Below, one piece after another: positions 2,502 through 41,243 of a stretch of DNA of 42,072 nucleotides. Each line of letters begins with the position of its first letter. The first letter of the stretch is position 1. This stretch comes from a virus, in the IMG/VR virus record IMGVR_UViG_3300012039_000017, positions 1 to 42,072 of that record, one strand, 5' to 3'. The notes beneath the pieces were generated by a model. That model worked only from the letters and a program-made list of their open reading frames with translations. It made no database searches and had not been told where the DNA came from. Both the position numbers and the translations under genes were made by a program.

Positions 2502-3026
2502 CTAACTTAGGTGAGAGCCGCCGACAATCTCAGTACCTTTAAAATTACAAGCTTCATTTTCTTCAAACTCATCTCGAATTTCCAATTCACGAGCTAGAGC
2601 AGCTAGAGCAGCCCATCGTGCGACTGGAAAACCATAAGTATTTCTGCCGTTCAAGTTATACATTATTGTCGAATAAGTTGGATTTTTAAATGTGTGCACA
2701 CCTCTATAAAGAGTGCTATTCGTTTTGTGATAATTTTTCCTGTGGAGTGCGTTAAATTTTCTGCTTACTATTCGAAGATTTTGTTTTCTATTATCCAATG
2801 TATTGTGATTTATATGGTCAATCTGTATTCCTGTGTTTCTTTTAGGAGTCGTTTTAATTAGTAAGACCAAGTGGTGCATAAATACTCTCGCAGCAGAACA
2901 GTAAGCGTACTGGTTCTTTAAATTGCCAATTAGATTCCAGTGTAAACTAGAAAGCCATTCAAAATCGTTATCGTCAACTAAAGCAAATTGTGTTGTTGTT
3001 TTATATTTAATAAGAAGTTGTTTCAT
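2502..3026 (-). CDS. HNH homing endonuclease with AP2-like DNA-binding region, 174 aa
   Basis: An N-terminal 'FALVDDNDFEWLSSLHWNL' region and HHLVLL motif lead into QIDHINHNTLDNRKQNLRIV at about residues 68-87, the HNH core. YRGVHTF and a degenerate AP2-like repeat (ARWAALAALARELEIRDEFEENEACNF) follow. This domain order is that of free-standing HNH homing endonucleases of phages. The gene is visibly more AT-rich than its neighbours, a sign of separate acquisition. It is preceded by its own promoter and by an attenuator-like terminator that ends 15 bases before the ATG. No Shine-Dalgarno site is visible. Confidence 0.85.
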   Translation of the reverse strand: MKQLLIKYKTTTQFALVDDNDFEWLSSLHWNLIGNLKNQYAYCSAARVFMHHLVLLIKTTPKRNTGIQIDHINHNTLDNRKQNLRIVSRKFNALHRKNYHKTNSTLYRGVHTFKNPTYSTIMYNLNGRNTYGFPVARWAALAALARELEIRDEFEENEACNFKGTEIVGGSHLS

Positions 3027-3205: not shown

Positions 3206-3289
3206 CCTATTCGACAGGTTTTATTAAAGGAGTAAAATTATAGTATCAATATTAAAGACCCGAATTATTGGGTCAAGAAAGTGAGCTAT

Positions 3290-3901
3290 ATGTTTCTACC
3301 AGAAAACTATAGGGAAATCCCTGCCAGTATTGGGGATTACATGAGAATGGAAGACGGAGCTAATAATATCCGTATTCTTTCTTCTGCAATTGTCGGTTAT
3401 GAATACTGGAACACCGAAAATAAGCCAGTGAGAAACCGAACACCTTGGGAAACACTTCCAGGCGATATCCGTATCGAAAAAAACGGTTCTATTTCTAAAA
3501 TTAAACATTTCTGGGCGTTTGTAGTCTGGAATTACGAAAAGAGCAAAATACAGATTCTCCAAGTAACCCAAAAAACAATCATGGAGGGTATTAAATCTTT
3601 AATAGACAACCCAAAGTGGGGCGACCCAAAGACCTTTGATATCACAATTACCAAAATGGGAGAGGGTTTAGAGACGAGCTATAGTGTAATGCCTAATCCG
3701 CATTCAGCTGTTGAAGATACCGTTACAGCTGAATTTAGAAAAAAGACTGTTAATCTTGAAGCTCTGTATGAGGGCAAAGACCCTTTCGTAAATACCGCAA
3801 CCCCGGCGGAAATTGTCGCCAAAGCCAGTGGTGGAAAATTCAGCCCGCAGAAACCTTTAAGCACCGAAGATGATAGAAAAATGGAAGAAACAAGATACTA
3901 G
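3290..3901 (+). CDS. Probable single-stranded DNA-binding protein, about 203 aa
   Basis: The order FRILSSAIVGYEYWNT-like (NNIRILSSAIVGYEYW), KHFWAFVVWNY, QILQVTQKTIMEGIKSL, NPKWGDPKTFDITITK and LETSYSVMPNPHS matches, from memory, a phage family annotated as ssDNA-binding (gp32-like/OB-fold) proteins. The C-terminus is low-complexity and ends EDDRKMEETRY; acidic residues near it are usual in such proteins. ATG at 3290 is chosen because AGTGAG sits 5 bases upstream; a GTG at 3281 would add three residues. First gene of a rightward three-gene operon. It would coat single strands during recombination or plasmid-like replication. Confidence 0.6.
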   Translation: MFLPENYREIPASIGDYMRMEDGANNIRILSSAIVGYEYWNTENKPVRNRTPWETLPGDIRIEKNGSISKIKHFWAFVVWNYEKSKIQILQVTQKTIMEGIKSLIDNPKWGDPKTFDITITKMGEGLETSYSVMPNPHSAVEDTVTAEFRKKTVNLEALYEGKDPFVNTATPAEIVAKASGGKFSPQKPLSTEDDRKMEETRY

Positions 3902-6349: not shown

Positions 6350-7063
6350 TTACTGTGCTAAGAATCCGGCCAGTTTTCCTGTGGCTTTGAATTGGGCGAG
6401 CGGGTCGAGTTCCTTAAACGCGCTTGTGAAGGCGTTGGTAAGGCTCCACATTGTTCGTGCCTTGAACTCGTCGTGCTGCGGGTTAAAGTAGTTGTTGTGA
6501 ACATCTCTGACGAGGTGGCGGGGAACGTCCAGCTCTCCTTCCACGAACGCTTCGTAAATCACCATCTTGGCGTCTGTATCGCTGAGCTGCTGGCCTCTCC
6601 ACATCTCAACCGCTTTCACCATCGGGTCGAATGAACGCTGCATGTCATCCACGCCGGCCGAAAGCGATTTGACCAGGTTGAAGTGTTTGGAGTGCTTAGC
6701 AAGCACAGGCGTGAAGTCTCCGTGGAAGCTCATATTGTCGCAAACGAACACTCGGTAGCCGACAGTCATTGCCAGCCGCATTGTTTTGTCATGCGAGTTG
6801 CGGAGTCCAAGGGCGAAGCGGGCGCCGTTAAAGGTCTGGTCCAGTTCCATCAGGCCGAACATCTTGTTTGTGTCCTGCGAAACCGCAAATTCCATTTTGT
6901 GAACTGCAATGTGTCTGAATCCGAGAGTTTCGACGAGGGCGTTTACCACTTCGTGATGAGGTATCGGTTTGTGTGTCGCTGTCCCTTGTGGGGTGGGGAG
7001 CTGGCAGAGAGTTTGGAAGTCAATCTTTTCGGTGTCAACGTGCGCTATCAAAGTGGAATCCAC
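6350..7063 (-). CDS. DUF932 family protein, 237 aa
   Basis: HKPIPHHEVVNALVETLGFRH (residues 31-51), MFGLMELD, ALGLRNSHDKTMRLAMTVGYRVFVCDNMSFHGD (about 84-116) and a helical C-terminal half are the signature order of DUF932, found on phages and plasmids. Its biochemical role is not established. Start is GTG at 7063 with AAGGAGG five bases upstream, an almost ideal ribosome site, so strong expression is likely. The HNH remnant follows directly. Confidence 0.85.
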   Translation of the reverse strand: MDSTLIAHVDTEKIDFQTLCQLPTPQGTATHKPIPHHEVVNALVETLGFRHIAVHKMEFAVSQDTNKMFGLMELDQTFNGARFALGLRNSHDKTMRLAMTVGYRVFVCDNMSFHGDFTPVLAKHSKHFNLVKSLSAGVDDMQRSFDPMVKAVEMWRGQQLSDTDAKMVIYEAFVEGELDVPRHLVRDVHNNYFNPQHDEFKARTMWSLTNAFTSAFKELDPLAQFKATGKLAGFLAQ

Positions 7064-32651: not shown

Positions 32652-33605
32652 ATGCCCGACATCAACAAGGATCTGCGGGAAATCCCGCTTCCTGTCGTCT
32701 TTCAATGGCTCGGCATAGATTTGTCGGGCTTTAAAACTCGTAAGGGTGGGACGGAATGGTATGGTCGTTGCTTTTTCCACGAAGCACAGAAAAACACCAC
32801 CTCGCTTTCGTTCACGGCGGAGCTGGCGCATTGCTTCAGTTGCCAAATGAAATTCAAAGGGGCAATCGACGCGGTTATCCAGTACAAGAAAGTGGGCTTC
32901 CAAGAGGCCACTGCCTGGCTAAAAGAAATGAAAGGGAATTCTCCTGCTCAACCTGCCATCGTTCAACCTGGGGCAGAATCTAGCGTTGTAGAGCCTCTAA
33001 AACCCTTCACCGGCAAATATGAAAAATACGCCGTTCCCTGTGAATGGTTGGAGAAACGGATTCCCGATGAAGCGGTTAGAAAACGGTACGGCGTGTTCTG
33101 CTACAACAACCCAGCTCGTAAGAGTGCTTACAGCGGGAGGGTTATGCTGCCGGTGCGTGACACACAGGGCACGCTCTATGGTTATCTTGGGCGTGCAATT
33201 TCAGACACGAAAGACAGCAACAACAGTGAACCGAAATACCTTTTCCCCCCGAACTTCCCAAAGTCTCGCTTTCTGTTTGGCGCTCATGAACTGGGTACGT
33301 TCGGTTCTCTTCCATTACGTGTCGTTTACCTGGTCGAGTCTCCGTTTTGCGTGATGAAGTTTGCGCTGTATGGTCTGCCGGCCGTGAGTCCTTTCGGCTG
33401 GTCTGTATCACCTGAGCAACTTTCAATTGTTCAATCTCTGACACGCGGCTTGATATACATACCAGACAGCAACAAGTATCAAGAGTGTGAACGTACGATT
33501 GCCCAATTAAGTCGCGTTCTTTGGGTGAAAGCTCCGCCGCTTCCTGCCGGGATTGATGACCCCGAATATCTGAGCCTTGAACAGATCCAGGCTCTAACCC
33601 GCTGA
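32652..33605 (+). CDS. DnaG-type primase (CHC2 zinc finger plus TOPRIM), 317 aa
   Basis: C40-x2-H43...C61-x2-C64 (GRCFFHEAQKN...AHCFSCQ) is a CHC2 primase zinc finger. A linker region (residues 120-190) leads to a TOPRIM-like fold: VVYLVES with Glu229, 'ALYGLPAVSPFGWSVSPEQLSIV' and a second acidic site. That site reads PDSN (Asp272), replacing the usual DxD, so metal binding may be reduced. AAGGAGG lies eight bases upstream of the ATG. No helicase domain and no helicase gene elsewhere. It would synthesise primers, possibly working with a host helicase. A strong terminator follows. Confidence 0.8.
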   Translation: MPDINKDLREIPLPVVFQWLGIDLSGFKTRKGGTEWYGRCFFHEAQKNTTSLSFTAELAHCFSCQMKFKGAIDAVIQYKKVGFQEATAWLKEMKGNSPAQPAIVQPGAESSVVEPLKPFTGKYEKYAVPCEWLEKRIPDEAVRKRYGVFCYNNPARKSAYSGRVMLPVRDTQGTLYGYLGRAISDTKDSNNSEPKYLFPPNFPKSRFLFGAHELGTFGSLPLRVVYLVESPFCVMKFALYGLPAVSPFGWSVSPEQLSIVQSLTRGLIYIPDSNKYQECERTIAQLSRVLWVKAPPLPAGIDDPEYLSLEQIQALTR

Positions 33606-34519: not shown

Positions 34520-35120
34520 ACTCTCAAATCCTTTTGAAAAAATCGTCGCGAGCGAAGCGAGAGACAGCCGACCGAAGGGAGGCTGAACTGTCCCCTGTTC
34601 CTTGTCCCCCTGTTCCCTCGTTCAGGCGTTTTACGTGTGATTTCTCACCAGCTCACAACCCGTCTTTATGCAAAATAGGCTTTCCTCTCTTACTGCCTAT
34701 CACCCCTTTTAGGTCCTGACGACTTGCACTGAAAAACGGATAGAAAAGAGCGCCCTTGGCGCTATCCAGCCCTTTCCCCGTCCGCTTCCCGGATTTTTCA
34801 GAACACCGTGGTGCCAGACAAAGACAGAACCGAATTATGCGAGCCGGAGGCGAGCCAAACGGGGAACCGCCGAGCCAATACCGCCAGTAGCCGTGTTTGT
34901 TTCACGTATTAGGGCGGCGGTAAACGGCGTTACCGCACGTCTGGCAAGACAGCCAGATTCCGAATGCTCGCGTAAGCGAAGCCACCCTGGCGTACCGCTG
35001 TTAAGTGGTTGCGGAGCAAGTCGTTAGACTAGACGGGGTGGCTTCGCTCGGAGAGCGAGCAGGAGGAATAGCCCGACCCCAATTTCATTGGGTAGCCAGC
35101 CACACGAAAGTGTAAACAGA
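34520..35120. ncRNA. Large hairpin-rich, gene-poor region; candidate structured RNA
   Basis: No convincing protein. Helices seen: GGCTGAAC/GTTCAGGC-type arms at 34581-34627 around a C-rich loop with two TGTCCCC-TGTTCC units; GGAT-AGCGCC/GGCGCT-ATCC at 34738-34767; TACCGCC/GGCGGTA at 34879-34922; TCTGGC/GCCAGA at 34940-34957; and GCTCGC plus a perfect 12-bp GCGAAGCCACCC/GGGTGGCTTCGC stem joining 34966-34987 with 35036-35060. Such density suggests a large RNA or a replication/packaging locus. No known RNA family recognised. The interval 33630-34520 holds weaker arms and only doubtful short frames. Confidence 0.35.
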
Positions 35121-35144: not shown

Positions 35145-35522
35145 TTATATGCGCTTTTTGACCCAAGTATGCACCGGCCGTAAGTGCCGGAAATTCCGGT
35201 TAGGGGCGTAGATTGACTTTCCCTCGACAAACTGTTTCATCAGTTTCACGGCTCGCCATACCTGTCGCCTGTTAAGGCGAAACCACTCTCCCCAAACGTG
35301 GTTCTTGAAATGAAGCCGATGCATCCAATCTTCCAGCTCAACGTATCGTTCGGTGACGGCAAAATGAACCACCTTGACAATTTTGTGGGTCTTTTGCCTC
35401 TCATAAAAACGCCACCGATTAGCCCAATTCGAAGTACGCCCGAATTTAACGAGACCATCAGCACGCCGGATAATATAAACACCTGATAACTTTTCGTTCA
35501 TAACCATACCGACTGGCTCCAT
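35145..35522 (-). CDS. T5orf172/GIY-YIG-like nuclease-fold protein, 125 aa
   Basis: SGVYIIRRADGLVKFGRTSNWANRWRFYERQ (residues 13-43) matches the start of the T5orf172 domain in the GIY-YIG superfamily (GVYIIR standing for GIY, and a KFGRT with the conserved Arg). It continues with VELEDWMHRLHFKNHVWGEWFRL. Such proteins occur as free-standing or intron-associated endonucleases or nucleic-acid-binding modules. In-frame ATGs at residues 6 and 8 are possible starts. It is flanked on both sides by hairpin-rich non-coding DNA. Confidence 0.75.
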   Translation of the reverse strand: MEPVGMVMNEKLSGVYIIRRADGLVKFGRTSNWANRWRFYERQKTHKIVKVVHFAVTERYVELEDWMHRLHFKNHVWGEWFRLNRRQVWRAVKLMKQFVEGKSIYAPNRNFRHLRPVHTWVKKRI

Positions 35523-35796: not shown

Positions 35797-36636
35797 TTAT
35801 GAGAGTTCCGTCAAAACCACCTTCTTATCGGGAAAGGTCGGGGAAAACCAAATCGGAGCGAGCGGGTTTTCCAAAACATCAGAATGGAGAGCGACAAAAA
35901 ACCTTATTCGCGTATTTTTCTTTCTCGCAAAGAGATTAAGCATTTCTCTTGTCCGTTCTAACGCCCCTTCGGGGTCTTCATAACCATAACGCCAATCCTG
36001 AACCGTAAACAAAATATTCGCCGCGCTGTTCTTTAGGTGCTGGAAAAAACGTATATAAAGCTCAATCTTCTCGTTAAATTGTGTAGTTAGATGTTCAGTA
36101 CCTCGGTCAACCTCTAAGAGGAATAATTCATCAGCCAGTTTCAAGCGGCGGTCATACCAAATCGGGTACTGTTGCTTCTTTTCATCTGAACCAATATTGA
36201 AAGCTTTTTTCTCATCAGCATCCCAAGCGTTATCCCAATGTTGAAGTTTTCCCGTTTGCCAAAACGCAACAAATAAATTAGCACAATCAAGCTCGTGCGG
36301 TACGCTCTTATAGCGCGAAATACCCTTGATGGCAGGGAGAGAATAAATATCAGGTAGGTTCCGGTGAGGCCTTCCGTGCTTTACGAGTTCTTTTTGATTT
36401 ACCATCCGGTTTAGCATTTGCTTCGTGTGCGGGTAACTCCCCGGATACATTATTAAGCGCGGCTTTTCTCGAATCAAAATAGGCTTCAAAAGCTGTCCCG
36501 TCTTGTCGTACGGATACAGTTTCGCCAGTTGGAGTGCTGTCATTCTTGGTTCTAGATGTAGAGCCTTCAAAATTGCCTTTTTTCTGTCTACCAATCCTTC
36601 CCTCTCTAAGTTCGGTTGTACTCTTAGAATTTGCAA
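35797..36636 (-). CDS. Replication-relaxation family protein (plasmid type), up to 279 aa
   Basis: N-terminal winged-helix pattern (KKAILKALHLEPRMTALQLAKLY, residues 19-41, and QMLNRMVNQKELVKHG). Then comes the family core: VPHELDCANLFVAFWQTGKL (112-131) and LFLLEVDRGTEHLTTQFNEK (171-190), the hallmark 'PHxLxxxxF...FLExDRGTE' of the Replic_Relax family used by plasmids for replication and DNA relaxation. The long form starts at TTG and shares 287 bases out of frame with the end of the ATPase gene; an ATG at 36540 would cut into the winged helix. It is not a known phage-structural function. Confidence 0.75.
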   Translation of the reverse strand: MQILRVQPNLEREGLVDRKKAILKALHLEPRMTALQLAKLYPYDKTGQLLKPILIREKPRLIMYPGSYPHTKQMLNRMVNQKELVKHGRPHRNLPDIYSLPAIKGISRYKSVPHELDCANLFVAFWQTGKLQHWDNAWDADEKKAFNIGSDEKKQQYPIWYDRRLKLADELFLLEVDRGTEHLTTQFNEKIELYIRFFQHLKNSAANILFTVQDWRYGYEDPEGALERTREMLNLFARKKNTRIRFFVALHSDVLENPLAPIWFSPTFPDKKVVLTELS

Positions 36637-38104
36637 ATCTATGTGTTATTTCCCCCCAAACCTCCGCCGTGCGGCGGTATAGCTGGGGATTACTTTTGAA
36701 TAAATGCTTTAAAAATTCGGTCACTTGTTGATCAGATACTTCCGCATCAATGTCTGGCCACGTTCTCATATCGCAAATACGAGGTAGTTGTTTGTTTATC
36801 CTAATAGCAGCCTGTCGCTTTTTAAGGGCTGACAAAACGAAAGTAATTTCCCGGTCAGTAATATCGCCGCCGTAACCCATCGTACCTATCATCTCCCGAA
36901 CGTCGTCCTCATCTGGTGTCCAAAACAGAAACTTGCTTTTACAACCGCCCTTTACCGCCCCTTTGACTTTCGGCATGTTATCAATCTGCCAGAACCACTG
37001 ATGCGCCAAAGTAAGGTAAATCTTTAAGTGCCGCCCCATTGTTAAAAGGTCGGCAATCTTGTCAGTTACGTAATAAGAAAATTCATCAATGTATACATAA
37101 AATGGAGTGGTGTTACCCTTCATGCGCTCGCGGGCTCGAATGACCTCATTGAGTATTGCGGTTCCTAATAGACTTTGCTGCGGCTTATCGTAAGTGCCGG
37201 TCTTGTCGAGGTTGCAAAGGATAATCCAGCCGTCACTGATTAACTGCTGAAAATTAACGCCTTGCTTTGAGCCGAAAATCGTCTTCATCGACGAATGGGT
37301 AAAAGGACCAAATCTTCTTAATGTCGCCTGAACGTCTACCCATGCCCTATCTGGATGTTTATCTTGGCAAGTCTTATAAATTCTGTCCAGTTCCTGCCGA
37401 GTTAACCAAGAAATGCTTTCGTTGTTGATTATCTGGTCTCGCTGATTAGCCAATGATGGGAAAATCATTTGCTCACATTCAGCGAGGGTATAACCGCCCC
37501 TGTGTAAGGCTTCAACAATGAAGCGAACATTGTGAGTAATAATAGATTCCTGCGTGAAATCGGCTGAATTCCATAAAACTCTCAAAGTGTCGGCAACGTG
37601 AGCTGCCATCGGTTCAGTTGGCGCGTTATAGTCAAGCGGATTGATAGGAACCACATATCGCAAGTCTTTATCAGGGTGGTTCATCAAAGACGGGTCAATT
37701 ACCAAAATCTTTTCAAAACCTTTCTTGATTGCGTATTTCAGGACTTTCCCCATCGTCGTACTCTTTACGTCACGAGTACTGTCGATAAAAAGGAAAGGTG
37801 CTTGGTAAGGCGGGTCTAAGGTTTTGTCCATGAGCATGTGGATATCCATGCTCATTAGCATTTCGAGAAAAGTACTCTTACCTTGTTCGGTAGTGCCTAA
37901 AACGTGGATGTGCTGCTGGCGGTCGTGTTCGTAAAAGAGGATTCTGCCGTCTTGTTCATTGTCAGCAATGTATCGGCCAGGGTAAGGGGATTGCTCTTCG
38001 TTAACTAACTCATCAATTACCTGACGGGCTGTCTGTCGCCTGGTCCACTGCTTGTAGGTTTGCCCCGTTTCCTGCTTGAAGTAGATGTCGCGCCATTTGC
38101 TCAT
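36350..38104 (-). CDS. VirD4/TraG-type coupling ATPase, 584 aa
   Basis: Walker A GTTEQGKST (residues 70-78), a second strand with DSTRDVKSTTMGK, Walker B FYVYIDEF (335-342) and the LTLAHQW glutamine motif (365-370) identify a VirD4/TraD/HerA-FtsK superfamily DNA-pumping ATPase. No N-terminal membrane helix is present; the co-transcribed four-helix protein could provide the anchor. The C-terminal 100 residues are disordered and basic, and their DNA also encodes the start of the next gene. AGGA nine bases upstream of the ATG is the ribosome site. The 5' end overlaps the coiled-coil gene by 92 bases. Confidence 0.8.
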   Translation of the reverse strand: MSKWRDIYFKQETGQTYKQWTRRQTARQVIDELVNEEQSPYPGRYIADNEQDGRILFYEHDRQQHIHVLGTTEQGKSTFLEMLMSMDIHMLMDKTLDPPYQAPFLFIDSTRDVKSTTMGKVLKYAIKKGFEKILVIDPSLMNHPDKDLRYVVPINPLDYNAPTEPMAAHVADTLRVLWNSADFTQESIITHNVRFIVEALHRGGYTLAECEQMIFPSLANQRDQIINNESISWLTRQELDRIYKTCQDKHPDRAWVDVQATLRRFGPFTHSSMKTIFGSKQGVNFQQLISDGWIILCNLDKTGTYDKPQQSLLGTAILNEVIRARERMKGNTTPFYVYIDEFSYYVTDKIADLLTMGRHLKIYLTLAHQWFWQIDNMPKVKGAVKGGCKSKFLFWTPDEDDVREMIGTMGYGGDITDREITFVLSALKKRQAAIRINKQLPRICDMRTWPDIDAEVSDQQVTEFLKHLFKSNPQLYRRTAEVWGEITHRFANSKSTTELREGRIGRQKKGNFEGSTSRTKNDSTPTGETVSVRQDGTAFEAYFDSRKAALNNVSGELPAHEANAKPDGKSKRTRKARKASPEPT

Positions 38105-38828
38105 TTAAATTCATCCTAAAGGCGGCTATCAGTTCATCTTTGGTTTGCAGTGCCATTTCTCTACTCTCATCATCCAAGGTGAAATCAGCTTTAATTTTGG
38201 CGCGTTGGTAAACCGCTCGTTGAATTTGAGCTTCAAGACTCTGAACCGTCAAATGTGGGAGTAAGCGTTTTGCGGTGGCTGCCTGAAGGTCAAGGCCTAT
38301 TTCCCGTTCATAAGCATCTAAACGGTTGGCATCCATTCTTTTAGTTTCATCAATTTTAATGTTCGATAACTTCTCTGTCTTTTCCAATTCGAGCGTGTGC
38401 TTTTCGCGTTCGACTTTCACCAAGCCGTAGGTGGGGACATCCATCCCTTCTTTAAGAGCCAAATTGACTATTCCCGCAATCGCCTGATTCTGCGCTAACG
38501 CTGTTTCGTGGATAGCTTTTAAAAGCTCGTCCTGCTGCTTTAATTTGGTTGGTAAAGTGTGAAGAGCGTGCTGCGCTGCCTGCACACTGCCTTCAACATT
38601 GGAAGAATGATTTATTTGCGCAATTTGGAGCTGTGCCTGAGCATTAAAATCCCGGATTCGGGCTTCACTTCGTCCGGCAGACCAATTGGGGAAAAGAACT
38701 GCGGGTTGGGGAGTTTCAATATAAGGTTCAATTATTGGAGGCGCAGCTAAGGTAATGGCCTCCGTAGCAACTGCGTCATAATCAATTTCCCCATGAAATT
38801 CTTCAGCGAGTTTGTCGTAGTCTTTCAA
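38013..38828 (-). CDS. Coiled-coil protein of the coupling module, 271 aa
   Basis: Starts at TTG overlapping the stop of the membrane-protein gene (TTGA). Contains long Gln/Glu/Lys-rich helices (RIRDFNAQAQLQIAQINHSS, EREKHTLELEKTEKLSNIKIDETKRMDANRLDAYEREIGLDLQAATAKR) with a Pro-rich N-terminal part (APPIIEPYIETPQPAVLFPN). No catalytic motif. A linker between membrane protein and ATPase is a reasonable inference from operon order and coupled starts. Confidence 0.55.
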   Translation of the reverse strand: MKDYDKLAEEFHGEIDYDAVATEAITLAAPPIIEPYIETPQPAVLFPNWSAGRSEARIRDFNAQAQLQIAQINHSSNVEGSVQAAQHALHTLPTKLKQQDELLKAIHETALAQNQAIAGIVNLALKEGMDVPTYGLVKVEREKHTLELEKTEKLSNIKIDETKRMDANRLDAYEREIGLDLQAATAKRLLPHLTVQSLEAQIQRAVYQRAKIKADFTLDDESREMALQTKDELIAAFRMNLNEQMARHLLQAGNGANLQAVDQATDSPSGN

Positions 38829-39358
38829 GGAATCCCTGCTTTCTTTTTAAAAGCATCAAGTGCTGCCTGATTTGGAAACGTATAGACCTTTCCGTTAGGA
38901 GCCGTAACGGAGAAACTACCTTCTTCAGGAACAATCTTAAAAATCAATAACAGAATAACAAGATGAACAATTCCATCAATAATTGACCAAGTGTTATTAG
39001 GTGCCGTTATAGTAAAAAGGTGAAGAGCAGTAAACGTTCCCGATAAAAAAACAAGTAAAGCCGCGCCACGCCCAAAGATTTTTACTGTCGAACGTACTCG
39101 GTCTGATTCCTCATCATCAGGTAATCCTCGTATAGGGAAAACGAAACGCAAAAATACGAACCCTGTGACAAAAATAATAGCGGCGTTCAATACAACAATG
39201 GCCTCAGGCACAAAATATTGCTGCGTCATATCAATGCCAAAGTCAGAGGGCAAATTCCGAAACCGAATAATGAAATAAACCGTAAAAATAAAAGCAAAAT
39301 TTCGGACTGTTTGCCTCTGCTGGCGTTCATACGCAGTCAAAGAAAGTTTGGAAGCCAT
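38825..39358 (-). CDS. Four-helix membrane protein, 177 aa
   Basis: Predicted membrane helices at about residues 19-35, 52-74, 95-114 and 123-142. A soluble C-terminal tag (GSFSVTAPNGKVYTFPNQAALDAFKKKAGIP) follows; I recognise its 'APxGKxYxFPxQAALDxFK' form as a recurring small module in other proteins. First gene of the leftward coupling module, transcribed from an ideal promoter whose start point is only two to three bases before the ATG. May anchor the ATPase to the membrane. Confidence 0.65.
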   Translation of the reverse strand: MASKLSLTAYERQQRQTVRNFAFIFTVYFIIRFRNLPSDFGIDMTQQYFVPEAIVVLNAAIIFVTGFVFLRFVFPIRGLPDDEESDRVRSTVKIFGRGAALLVFLSGTFTALHLFTITAPNNTWSIIDGIVHLVILLLIFKIVPEEGSFSVTAPNGKVYTFPNQAALDAFKKKAGIP

Positions 39359-39367
39359 TTGCCGCGG

Positions 39368-39396
39368 ATTCTACATCCCGCATACGGTTAGGTCAA
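39368..39396 (-). promoter_or_regulatory. Sigma-70-type promoter of the coupling module, nearly leaderless
   Basis: TTGACC (39391-39396), exact 17-base spacer, TAGAAT (39368-39373), then CCGCGGCAA and the ATG at 39358. Transcription should begin two or three bases before the start codon. Confidence 0.65.
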
Positions 39397-39442: not shown

Positions 39443-39522
39443 TGGAGTAGAATCAGTCGAGCCGAGGGTTTAGTTTCCTCATGCGTGTGAAGCATGCGCT
39501 CTTCCAACTGAGCTATGATCCC
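39443..39522 (-). other. tRNA-Val(CAC) 5' half, probable phage attachment site
   Basis: Leftward from 39522: GGGATCA acceptor strand, TA, D-arm GCTCAGTTGGAAGAGC, G, anticodon arm CATGC-TTCACAC-GCATG (anticodon CAC), AGG. All positions are canonical to about nucleotide 46. After that no normal T-arm exists, although TGATTCT (39449-39455) could pair with the acceptor. A truncated tRNA next to a tyrosine integrase gene is the usual mark of attP; a tRNA with an aberrant T-arm is the alternative. Confidence 0.6.
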
Positions 39523-39600: not shown

Positions 39601-40074
39601 TCACATTTTACTTTGTGCTTCCCAAAACTCCAAAGCTTCCTTCGTTGGACTTCCAAAGCGATACGTTCCAACCAACGTTCTCTTCCGGTGGCAATTCGCG
39701 CATCGAACATCACACTTACTTATCTCCTCAATCAAAGTTTTTAAAGAACACTTACTAAGAACTAAAGCTGTCACCGCCCGTTTCTTCTTTCCTCTTACGT
39801 GGTCGTATTCCAAAACAACAGGATTCTTCTCTCCGCAATCAACACAAGGGTGCAAAAGCAAATGAGCAAGCAAATATGCTCGGTTGCGCTGCAATACAAA
39901 ATCAACAAGTCCTTTCCTTCTAAGATTTATTTGAACCTGATTTCTAGCGTAATAATCACGTTCAATTCTTGCCTGACACGCTCGACAGTATCGCTGCAAA
40001 CCATCTTTATTCGTCCTGTTCTGATTAAAAGAACTCCCCCTTCTTTTTTTCTGACATCTCAAACAAATTTTCAA
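39601..40074 (-). CDS. HNH endonuclease, 157 aa
   Basis: N-terminal zinc knuckles CLRCQKK and RYCRACQARIERDYY, then CVDCG...VLEYDHVRGKKKRAVTAL and CDVRCANCHRKRT (about residues 77-132): a Cys-Cys/DH/N-x-x-H HNH core in the form common in phage homing and packaging-linked nucleases. The start is TTG at 40074, preceded by TAATTAACC rather than a Shine-Dalgarno site. Divergent from the integrase gene with only 17 bases between start codons, next to the attachment-site candidate. Confidence 0.75.
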   Translation of the reverse strand: MKICLRCQKKRRGSSFNQNRTNKDGLQRYCRACQARIERDYYARNQVQINLRRKGLVDFVLQRNRAYLLAHLLLHPCVDCGEKNPVVLEYDHVRGKKKRAVTALVLSKCSLKTLIEEISKCDVRCANCHRKRTLVGTYRFGSPTKEALEFWEAQSKM

Positions 40075-40091: not shown

Positions 40092-40889
40092 ATGAACACT
40101 GACAAATTTATAAATGAAAGAAAGTATCTCAAAGCCGTCACTCCCTGCACTCTCGCCTGGTACAAACAATCTTTCAAAGCTTTTGAAGATGCACTGGAAA
40201 CTACAGAGGAAATCAAGCAGCGAATTGTTGAGCTACGGGAACGGGGAACGAAACCTGTTTCAATCAACACTTATCTTCGGGCGGTAAAAGCGTACTGGTT
40301 GTGGCAAGGGAAGAAATGGGAAGTTGGTCATTTAAACGAAGAATCTAAAATCCTAAGTACGTTTTCTCCCCATCAGGTCAACCAATTTCTCAAGTCTCGT
40401 CCTGGGCGCACGCACACGCTTGTGTGTTTGTTGTTTGATAGCGGGCTTCGCATTTCCGAAGCTCTTTCGCTGAAAAAAGAGGACATAGATTTGGACGGGT
40501 TTACCCTTCGGGTCTTGGGCAAGGGCGGAAAACACCGTCTTGTGCCGTTTTCGGCAGAGTTTCGCAAAATCCTTTTCCGTTATCTGGTCAAATTTCCGAG
40601 TCAGAATTACGTTTTTGCTACTCGAAATAACACAAAGCTCACCGTTAGAAACTTCCTGCGTGATTTTAAAAAACTGGGTCATCAATTAGGGGTTAAGAAT
40701 GTAAGAATTTCACCACACACTTGCCGCCATTCTTTCGCTGTCAACTGGTTAAGACGGGGAGGGAATTTATATTCGCTTCAGCGGATACTCGGCCATTCGA
40801 GTATTACAACTACAGAACGTTACTGCCGGTCTTTGGGGATAGAGGATATTATCAAGGAACACAGCTCACGCAGCCTTTTGTGCGGGTAG
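40092..40889 (+). CDS. Tyrosine integrase, 265 aa
   Basis: N-terminal core-binding SAM-like domain (residues 1-75; SINTYLRAVKAYWLW) and catalytic domain with Arg120 (GLRISEAL), Lys147 (GKGGKHRLVP), His209-x-x-Arg212 (HTCRHSF), His235 (LGHSS) and nucleophile Tyr244 (TERYCRSL). All six signature residues are present, so it should be active. It is short and XerD-like. GAGG lies seven bases before the ATG. Together with the tRNA fragment it indicates site-specific integration into a tRNA-Val gene. Confidence 0.92.
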   Translation: MNTDKFINERKYLKAVTPCTLAWYKQSFKAFEDALETTEEIKQRIVELRERGTKPVSINTYLRAVKAYWLWQGKKWEVGHLNEESKILSTFSPHQVNQFLKSRPGRTHTLVCLLFDSGLRISEALSLKKEDIDLDGFTLRVLGKGGKHRLVPFSAEFRKILFRYLVKFPSQNYVFATRNNTKLTVRNFLRDFKKLGHQLGVKNVRISPHTCRHSFAVNWLRRGGNLYSLQRILGHSSITTTERYCRSLGIEDIIKEHSSRSLLCG

Positions 40890-41243
40890 GGAATCAAGCA
40901 ACTGCTGAATGCCAAGGAGGGCTAATTTGTCGTCTTTTTTTCGGTATGCAAAGGCGCGGAGTTTGAGTTTCTTGTACCCGTCCTCTCCGAGTTGCTTCTT
41001 CTTGAAAGCGATATATTCTTCTCTTCCGTCTCCTCCAAGATATTGATGGCAACTGAAACACAGGGCATCGCAATTATCTGGGTCAAAGCGTGTGTTCTCT
41101 CGCGCTCGTCCCCAAAAATGAGAATTTTGTAAGCCTTCTGTTGGCGGCCGAAATTGCTTTTGGCAGAAGACACATCGCCAACCGTCTCTTGTTCGGATGT
41201 ATTTTGAAAATACTGCATCGGCTTTTCGGATTTTAATTTTCAA
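40866..41243 (-). CDS. NinG-like HNH nuclease, 125 aa
   Basis: KYIRTRDGWRCVFCQKQFRP, LQNSHFWGRARENTRFDPDNCDALCFSCHQYLGGDGREEY and FKKKQLGEDGYKKLKLRA match the order of NinG/Rap-type phage recombination nucleases (C-x2-C, H-F-x-R, N-x-x-x-x-C-x-x-C-N/H). It starts at TTG overlapping the preceding gene and its 3' end overlaps the integrase gene by 24 bases. With the NinB-like and PD-(D/E)XK-like genes nearby, it forms a probable recombination set. Confidence 0.75.
   Translation of the reverse strand: MKIKIRKADAVFSKYIRTRDGWRCVFCQKQFRPPTEGLQNSHFWGRARENTRFDPDNCDALCFSCHQYLGGDGREEYIAFKKKQLGEDGYKKLKLRAFAYRKKDDKLALLGIQQLLDSLPAQKAA

Follow-up and report, generated by a model that had tools for sequence, protein, structure and literature searches.

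A candidate MOB_C-type mobilization module in integrating tailed phages of Acidobacteriota

Virion transmission and conjugative mobilization are commonly regarded as separate strategies. Here we describe a four-gene operon of the IMG/VR virus record IMGVR_UViG_3300012039_000017 (42,072 bases, analysed at full length and hereafter called the window), which encodes a relaxase-like Replic_Relax protein, a coupling-protein-like ATPase and two partner proteins in the genome of a tailed phage. A comparable pair is known from CloDF13, a mobilizable plasmid that supplies both a coupling protein and a MOB_C relaxase and uses a borrowed channel (PMC7431656). Like CloDF13, with MobB (a type IV coupling protein, T4CP) and MobC (the relaxase), and like pAD1, with TraX, the operon encodes a PF13814/MobC-type protein with a predicted N-terminal winged helix and PD-(D/E)XK-type signature, together with a VirD4-like ATPase and no full type IV secretion system (T4SS). 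It differs from both plasmids in its carrier, a tailed integrating prophage, in an ATPase that has separate membrane and coiled-coil partners instead of a transmembrane (TM) domain of its own, and in an ATPase/relaxase gene overlap of about 100-300 nt; the phage module, moreover, has only a candidate origin of transfer (oriT).

According to the preliminary description of the window, coupling ATPases are not normally found in tailed phages. This is broadly true, but Bacillus tyroviruses have an annotated type IV secretion system protein (gp17) beside a replication-relaxation protein (gp18) (PMC9703825), and related Bacillus phages have been reported (PMC9658697, PMC7685451, PMC3853050). In the tyroviruses, Pony, Izhevsk and Novomoskovsk/Bolokhovo, as here, a T4SS-type or FtsK-type ATPase gene adjoins a Replic_Relax gene in a tailed phage. 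However, these are phages of Firmicutes, some of which carry ParM or ribbon-helix-helix (RHH) partition-type genes not seen here, whereas the Acidobacteriota module adds conserved membrane and coiled-coil partners, tRNA attachment (att) sites and a structured cis element. In the Microcystis phage Mwe-JY31 (PP438423), an ATPase (XAI96380, DUF87/TrwB/TraG-D_C) is likewise followed directly by a Replic_Relax-like protein (XAI96379), whose match is weak (14.5 bits, with a profile alignment spanning just 24 N-terminal residues); this differs in being a 22-kb plasmid-like element with a Rep3 initiator and ParA. The jumbo Bacillus phage G (L184, NC_023719) has a distant Replic_Relax homologue, gp146, a few kb from gp155, which is annotated as VirB-like.

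A second group of comparable systems pairs HerA-clade ATPases with nucleases (NurA-HerA, SIR2-HerA, DndFGH and mad8 of MADS), the partner here being a probable PD-(D/E)XK nuclease. Unlike in those systems, the nuclease matches no defence model, the ATPase is nearer to T4CPs, a cis element is linked to the genes and the context is that of a mobile element. Pairs of a T4SS-type ATPase and a replication-relaxation protein are already known in Bacillus tailed phages; we found no description, in the open-access literature, of such a module in Acidobacteriota prophages. The present analysis adds a distinct Acidobacteriota family, itself conserved, together with its four-gene layout, its prophage boundaries and a covarying cis element, as well as its exchange between virion types and a copy in an element devoid of visible virion genes.

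The four open reading frames (ORFs) form, as first proposed, a leftward operon on the minus strand (39358 to 35797), with successive overlaps of 4, 92 and 287 nt (Table 1). The true start of gene 4 is probably downstream of the listed TTG, for instance at the TTG at 36594. The operon had also been credited with an ideal promoter of its own: there is a sigma-70-like site upstream, but it is good rather than ideal, and when the 242 nt upstream are shuffled, a site of equal quality arises in 1.25% of cases. A promoter-like site with 11 of 12 consensus matches sits at the operon's distal end (35814-35786).

The Replic_Relax assignment of gene 4 stands. The protein matches PF13814 at 30.0 bits against a cutoff of 25.3 (E 8.6e-9; 0 of 14 control genomes) and contains the LEVDRGTEHL sequence; matches above cutoff also occur in G002, G006, G011, G025, G027, G028 and G031-G035. 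An AlphaFold2 model (mean pLDDT 81, pTM 0.83) predicts an N-terminal winged helix followed by an αβββαβ core, as read from the order of elements. The core bears the signature D162…E175-x-D/E177…K190…Y194: D162 and E175 are present in 17 of 17 aligned sequences, Y194 in 16 and K190 in 15, and position 177 is acidic in nearly all. PF13814 has been equated with the MobC relaxase, located beside a VirD4 protein (PMC5357655), and a review places MOB_C among PD-(D/E)XK proteins and describes TraX as having a winged helix at its N-terminus (PMC12857230). Judged by its sequence, gene 4 is related to the PF13814/MobC superfamily in the sense applied to mobilizable elements; the predicted fold and the D162…Y194 signature suit MOB_C, and the core is probably a PD-(D/E)XK nuclease. 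Foldseek returned weak matches, none below E 0.07, to MarR-type regulators and to R.BspD6I, McrBC and PaqCI. On a Paenibacillus plasmid, a replication-relaxation protein encoded close to a gene annotated for conjugal transfer can be aligned with the family across the active-site stretch (hhalign, 94.4% probability). An Alicyclobacillus gene next to a TraG-like protein was considered as a further relaxase homologue and found unsupported. In the CloDF13 record, mobB and mobC are split over several frames, and the plasmid was left out of the alignments.

The ATPase encoded by gene 3 has intact Walker motifs, as originally noted (Walker A GTTEQGKS, Walker B YVYIDE), both kept in seven relatives. 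With a profile of the family (A5), only TrwB (E 7e-4) and, at a weaker level, DotL (E 0.005) matched significantly among PDB sequences. TrwB_AAD_bind is detected in five of seven members and TraG-D_C in four, the window member itself matching neither, while Foldseek relates the ATPase model to HerA, DotL, TrwB, VirB4 and DndH folds. The family combines a RecA-like nucleotide-binding domain, Walker A and B motifs (7/7) and T4CP family signatures. The VirD4/TraG-type identity first proposed is borne out to the extent that the protein falls within the HerA/VirD4/VirB4 clade, apart from terminases; a terminase or FtsK identity is ruled out by the T4CP and HerA matches, FtsK_SpoIIIE and DUF87 remaining below cutoff in the window. 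A hydropathy scan of the ATPase revealed no N-terminal TM domain such as most T4CPs possess. As it lacks a TM segment and the membrane protein is separate, we call it coupling-protein-like rather than a canonical VirD4.

The product of gene 1 was initially taken for a four-helix membrane protein. A simple hydropathy scan finds three clear TM segments (residues 54-72, 99-117 and 125-143), while the counterpart in G006 has four, so that four helices are plausible but uncertain. Counterparts with one to four TM segments lie upstream of the ATPase gene in relatives. Gene 2 is 33% identical to its G006 counterpart, and its equivalent bears one or two TM segments in G025, G026, G028, G030 and G031. 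Membrane and helical proteins are encoded upstream of the ATPase wherever the contig reaches that far. We propose that gene 1 encodes a membrane anchor and gene 2 an adaptor; since the helical protein is itself membrane-anchored in the five loci just named, the two may act as a single anchor.

How widespread is this arrangement? Single-sequence searches of viral contigs identified no close relatives of the ATPase or relaxase, but an alignment-based search succeeded. Relatives were gathered from IMG/VR through relatives of the terminase, three of which (G002, G006 and G011) hold both the ATPase and a Replic_Relax match, and then by profile searches of phages and Acidobacteriota genomes. The ATPase–relaxase pair was found in 15 further loci, from 11 IMG/VR phages and four Acidobacteriota genomes. 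We compared in tabular form 15 loci (12 phages including the window and three bacterial copies); the sixteenth, G045, has the same layout. The motifs and gene order are kept at about 30% identity. In all 15 tabulated loci the relaxase gene directly follows the ATPase gene in another frame, overlapping it by 104-296 nt, and the start of the relaxase winged helix is coded within the disordered tail of the ATPase (36350-36636 and equivalents). A conserved overlap of such length is unusual.

The idea of a conserved module within a tailed phage is upheld. The ATPase is not of a packaging or FtsK-like family, and the 15 further loci place the module beyond any single assembly. A chimeric assembly join is ruled out by the same loci and by the circular closure of the window. 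The ORF at 2-331 on the minus strand runs on over the 1|42072 join, and reading it across this join recovers the C-terminus of its G007 homologue.

The module also appears to be independent of virion type, recurring with unrelated terminases. Carriers G002, G006 and G028 have a window-type terminase (63-76% identity), whereas G025, G026 and G027 have the module and no detectable window-type terminase; conversely, G013, G017 and G023 have this terminase type (about 68, 58 and 43% identity) and no relaxase homologue by profile. G011 (L043-L045), a 44.6-kb phage with a window-type terminase (77%), presents a distant, differently arranged module type, in which two ATPases (405 and 431 aa) accompany a full-length PF13814 protein.

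Downstream of the relaxase gene, we identified a structured cis element common to six loci (the window, G002, G006, G025, G026 and G029). It comprises a hairpin, an invariant CTATT and a long inverted repeat, whose arms measure 13-22 bp and whose loop measures 37-58 nt. The distance between the element and the stop codon of the relaxase gene is 110-140 nt in G002, G006, G026 and G029, and about 750 nt in the window, where the endonuclease gene at 35145-35522, a probable later insertion, separates the two. Among the 22 pairs of the six-sequence alignment (A9), 13 change on both sides and stay paired. The covariation score is 0.545, versus 0.236 in shuffles, with none of 500 shuffles reaching the observed score, and the signal is lost when partners are slid by one to three columns. 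Two-sided changes (24 cells) far exceed one-sided G-U changes (4 cells), a balance that tends to favour an inverted repeat in the DNA over an RNA, six sequences being few. The Rfam scan returned no family for the element, and the window region has no simple direct repeats of the kind seen at some oriT sites. A covariance model gave strong matches only in the six loci that built it; neither the remaining module loci nor phages lacking the module gave one. From its sequence, the element is a candidate oriT or nicking site, replication origin or RNA.

Acidobacteriota are abundant in soil, and their viruses are poorly known. The strong bacterial copies of the module are all from this phylum (RIFCSPLOWO2_12_FULL_68_19, two Pyrinomonadaceae and G045, the last sampled from within the phylum of G030), which speaks against the Patescibacteria host first suggested: Patescibacteria matches are distant, those in Saccharibacteria being only 22-27% identical over most of their length. 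Only one Patescibacteria locus, L089, had a relaxase match, weak and some kb from the query match. At L089:14812-17837 (Saccharibacteria RIFCSPHIGHO2_12_FULL_44_22), a relaxase-like match (3e-4) lies just past a second, weaker ATPase; L089 is possibly a distant Patescibacteria version of the pair.

G045 is a complete prophage with its integrase beside tRNA-Asp at 245.7 kb, followed by early genes, tail, head, portal, terminase, relaxase, ATPase, adaptor and membrane protein and then by host genes; its tail, head, portal and terminase genes resemble those of the window and G028. It is bounded by two copies of a 52-bp stretch from the 3' end of tRNA-Asp (245,698-245,749 and 288,477-288,528, 98% identical) and measures 42.8 kb. 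In the window, 46 nt of the phage attachment site (attP; 39477-39522) equal the 5' half of a tRNA-Val(CAC) gene, and were found with one mismatch in 1 of 396 Acidobacteriota genomes, within an ARAGORN tRNA-Val(CAC). Because attP lies between integrase and module, integration leaves them at opposite ends, as in G045. We infer that this position may explain why phage contigs often break right there.

These observations do not favour the phage-plasmid first envisaged: the tRNA-Val attP is beside the integrase, and in a relative, G045, tRNA att repeats bound a prophage lying in the chromosome. Nor is it supported by gene content, since no plasmid initiator (Rep) or partition (Par) family was found among the window proteins scanned, which did not include the smallest ORFs. 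The phage integrates as a prophage in Acidobacteriota; an episomal phase is also possible, which falls short of a demonstrated phage-plasmid.

In G030 (Pyrinomonadaceae), the module forms part of an integrated element of 49.8 kb. An integrase lies at the opposite end, and exact 49-bp copies of the 3' end of tRNA-Asp (262,355 and 312,176) mark the boundaries. No head, tail or terminase occurs among the 25 of 35 PHROG families listed for its 35 proteins; the listed families include methyltransferases, a helicase and integrases. As this element has the module without listed virion families, the module is not bound to virion formation. In G031, the module starts about 180 bp past a tRNA-Asp gene. 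The G030 element also encodes a 364-aa protein (C18:300627-301721, L169:630-1721) with no Pfam family; of the phage pieces compared, about seven encode a homologue. A second T4CP-like ATPase is likewise present (L169:2713-3948; TrwB_AAD_bind and TraG-D_C above cutoff, mad8 54 bits). Methyltransferase and DndB-type genes are found elsewhere in the element, possibly a defence island.

Table 1. Positions of the module genes, the cis element and neighbouring features in the window
Feature	Position	Strand	Basis or remark
Gene 1, small integral membrane protein, 177 aa	38825..39358	-	ORF; TM segments; without Pfam family
Gene 2, Q/E/K/R/A-rich, probably coiled-coil protein, 271 aa	38013..38828	-	ORF; G006 counterpart
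Gene 3, HerA/VirD4-clade ATPase, coupling-protein-like, 584 aa	36350..38104	-	Profiles, Foldseek, Walker motifs
Gene 4, Replic_Relax / MOB_C-like protein, 279 aa	35797..36636	-	PF13814; structure model; conserved residues
Sigma-70-like promoter TTGACC-17-TAGAAT	39368..39396	-	10/12 consensus matches
Candidate cis element	34965..35107	-	Hairpin 1 35092-35078; CTATT 35071-35067; inverted-repeat arms 35048-35034, 34989-34975
attP, tRNA-Val(CAC)-derived	39448..39522	-	Rfam tRNA 36.2 bits; between integrase and module
Tyrosine integrase	40092..40889	+	Pfam Phage_integrase E 1.6e-33; far side of attP from module
CHC2/TOPRIM-N primase	32652..33605	+	PF01807, PF08275; context gene, outside module
GIY-YIG/MUG113 homing-type endonuclease	35145..35522	-	PF13455 25.7 bits; phrog_18411 homing endonuclease

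The remainder of the window is that of a tailed phage (Caudoviricetes), as assessed from TerL, portal and HK97-type head genes. The terminase (Terminase_6N, 47.6 bits) is up to 38% identical to those of Pelagibacter podoviruses; an SU10 adaptor (27.9 bits) and a phrog_267 major head protein were identified, and a weak SU10 portal match (25.7 bits) is under its cutoff. The genome contains four HNH or GIY-YIG endonuclease genes in 42 kb (2502-3026, 39601-40074, 40866-41243 and that of Table 1), two of which flank the integrase. A DUF932 protein (6350-7063), with 47-59% identity in G007, G011, G025, G026 and G027, is a member of the common non-virion backbone; used as a tracer of the host in genome contigs, this neighbour gave no match.

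What might this operon do? We give about even chances to a MOB_C-type DNA-processing and translocation module of an integrating Acidobacteriota tailed phage, likely serving mobilization. The Replic_Relax protein would bind the cis site through its winged helix and nick it with its PD-(D/E)XK core, the choice of nicked site being conjectural; a hexameric VirD4/HerA-type ATPase would pump the processed DNA, with the membrane protein and the coiled-coil adaptor fixing the ATPase to the inner membrane in the manner of a split coupling protein. The excised or integrated element could then move as DNA via the conjugation channel of another element. Several observations weigh against this scheme. VirB4 (PF03135) was found in none of the 13 phage records and in none of the four module-bearing Acidobacteriota assemblies, a Caulobacter control being positive, and the element holds no complete T4SS with VirB4 as a conjugative element would. 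The missing VirB4 is the most serious point, as it leaves no resident channel in view, although the helper need not be resident and metagenome-assembled genomes are incomplete. In addition, the nuclease core is weakly backed by Foldseek (best restriction-enzyme match E about 0.1), the ATPase also resembles HerA and DndH (Foldseek) and mad8 of PADLOC, and the cis element was detected in only 6 of 16 module loci. The wider proposition that temperate tailed phages spread in two ways, as virions and by relaxase-driven mobilization through a helper conjugation channel, with a module shared with virion-less integrated elements, is accordingly put forward as doubtful.

Replication offers an alternative, in which Replic_Relax nicks an origin and the HerA-like protein acts as translocase or helicase with a primase and a single-stranded DNA-binding (SSB) protein, genes 1 and 2 providing a membrane tether. 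A CHC2 primase is indeed close by in the window, G002, G006, G025 (homologues 45-52% identical in the last three) and the G029 copy, on plasmids of Alicyclobacillus and Methylomagnum CHC2 genes neighbour TraG-like ATPases, gp146 of phage G is annotated 'replication initiation by nicking', there is an SSB-like gene at 3281-3901, and the cis element could serve as an origin. However, phages with a related terminase (G013, G017 and G023) gave no relaxase match by profile, so that the relaxase is not a required replisome part; no homologue of the window primase was seen in carriers G026 and G027; the ATPase is nearest to coupling proteins and accompanied by membrane proteins; and 'replication-relaxation' is here a family label. 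We regard this role as unlikely, and to the same degree defence or superinfection exclusion, where a membrane-tethered HerA-type ATPase and a PD-(D/E)XK nuclease would destroy incoming DNA. The latter would agree with the Foldseek matches to HerA, DndH-C, SIR2-HerA and TdpAB, with the PADLOC mad8 match (36-53 bits), and with the accessory distribution and location at the att end of the prophage, a frequent site of cargo genes. Yet the relaxase-like protein has no PADLOC match, HerA models reach E 9e-4 at best, the PDB profile matches are T4CPs rather than HerA, and a structured cis site adjoining the genes is more typical of self-processing. No methyltransferase, needed in a MADS-type system, was seen among the window proteins scanned, and membership of MADS is ruled out, mad8 being the only match. 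Improbable, finally, is a plasmid-derived relic or maintenance set for dimer resolution, segregation, excision help or DNA entry. The Bacillus versions have been read as plasmid-maintenance genes (PMC9703825, PMC9658697) and the FtsK-like protein of phage Pony was suggested to act in DNA injection (PMC3853050), but prophages that integrate in tRNA genes have no obvious need of segregation help, and the preservation of motifs and gene order across such deep divergence makes a relic unlikely.

Prophages are described here for Acidobacteriota, together with a defined gene module and a defined candidate cis site that are available for testing. If the mobilization reading is true, the module would join the virion and conjugative routes, linking prophages and mobilizable islands in Acidobacteriota.

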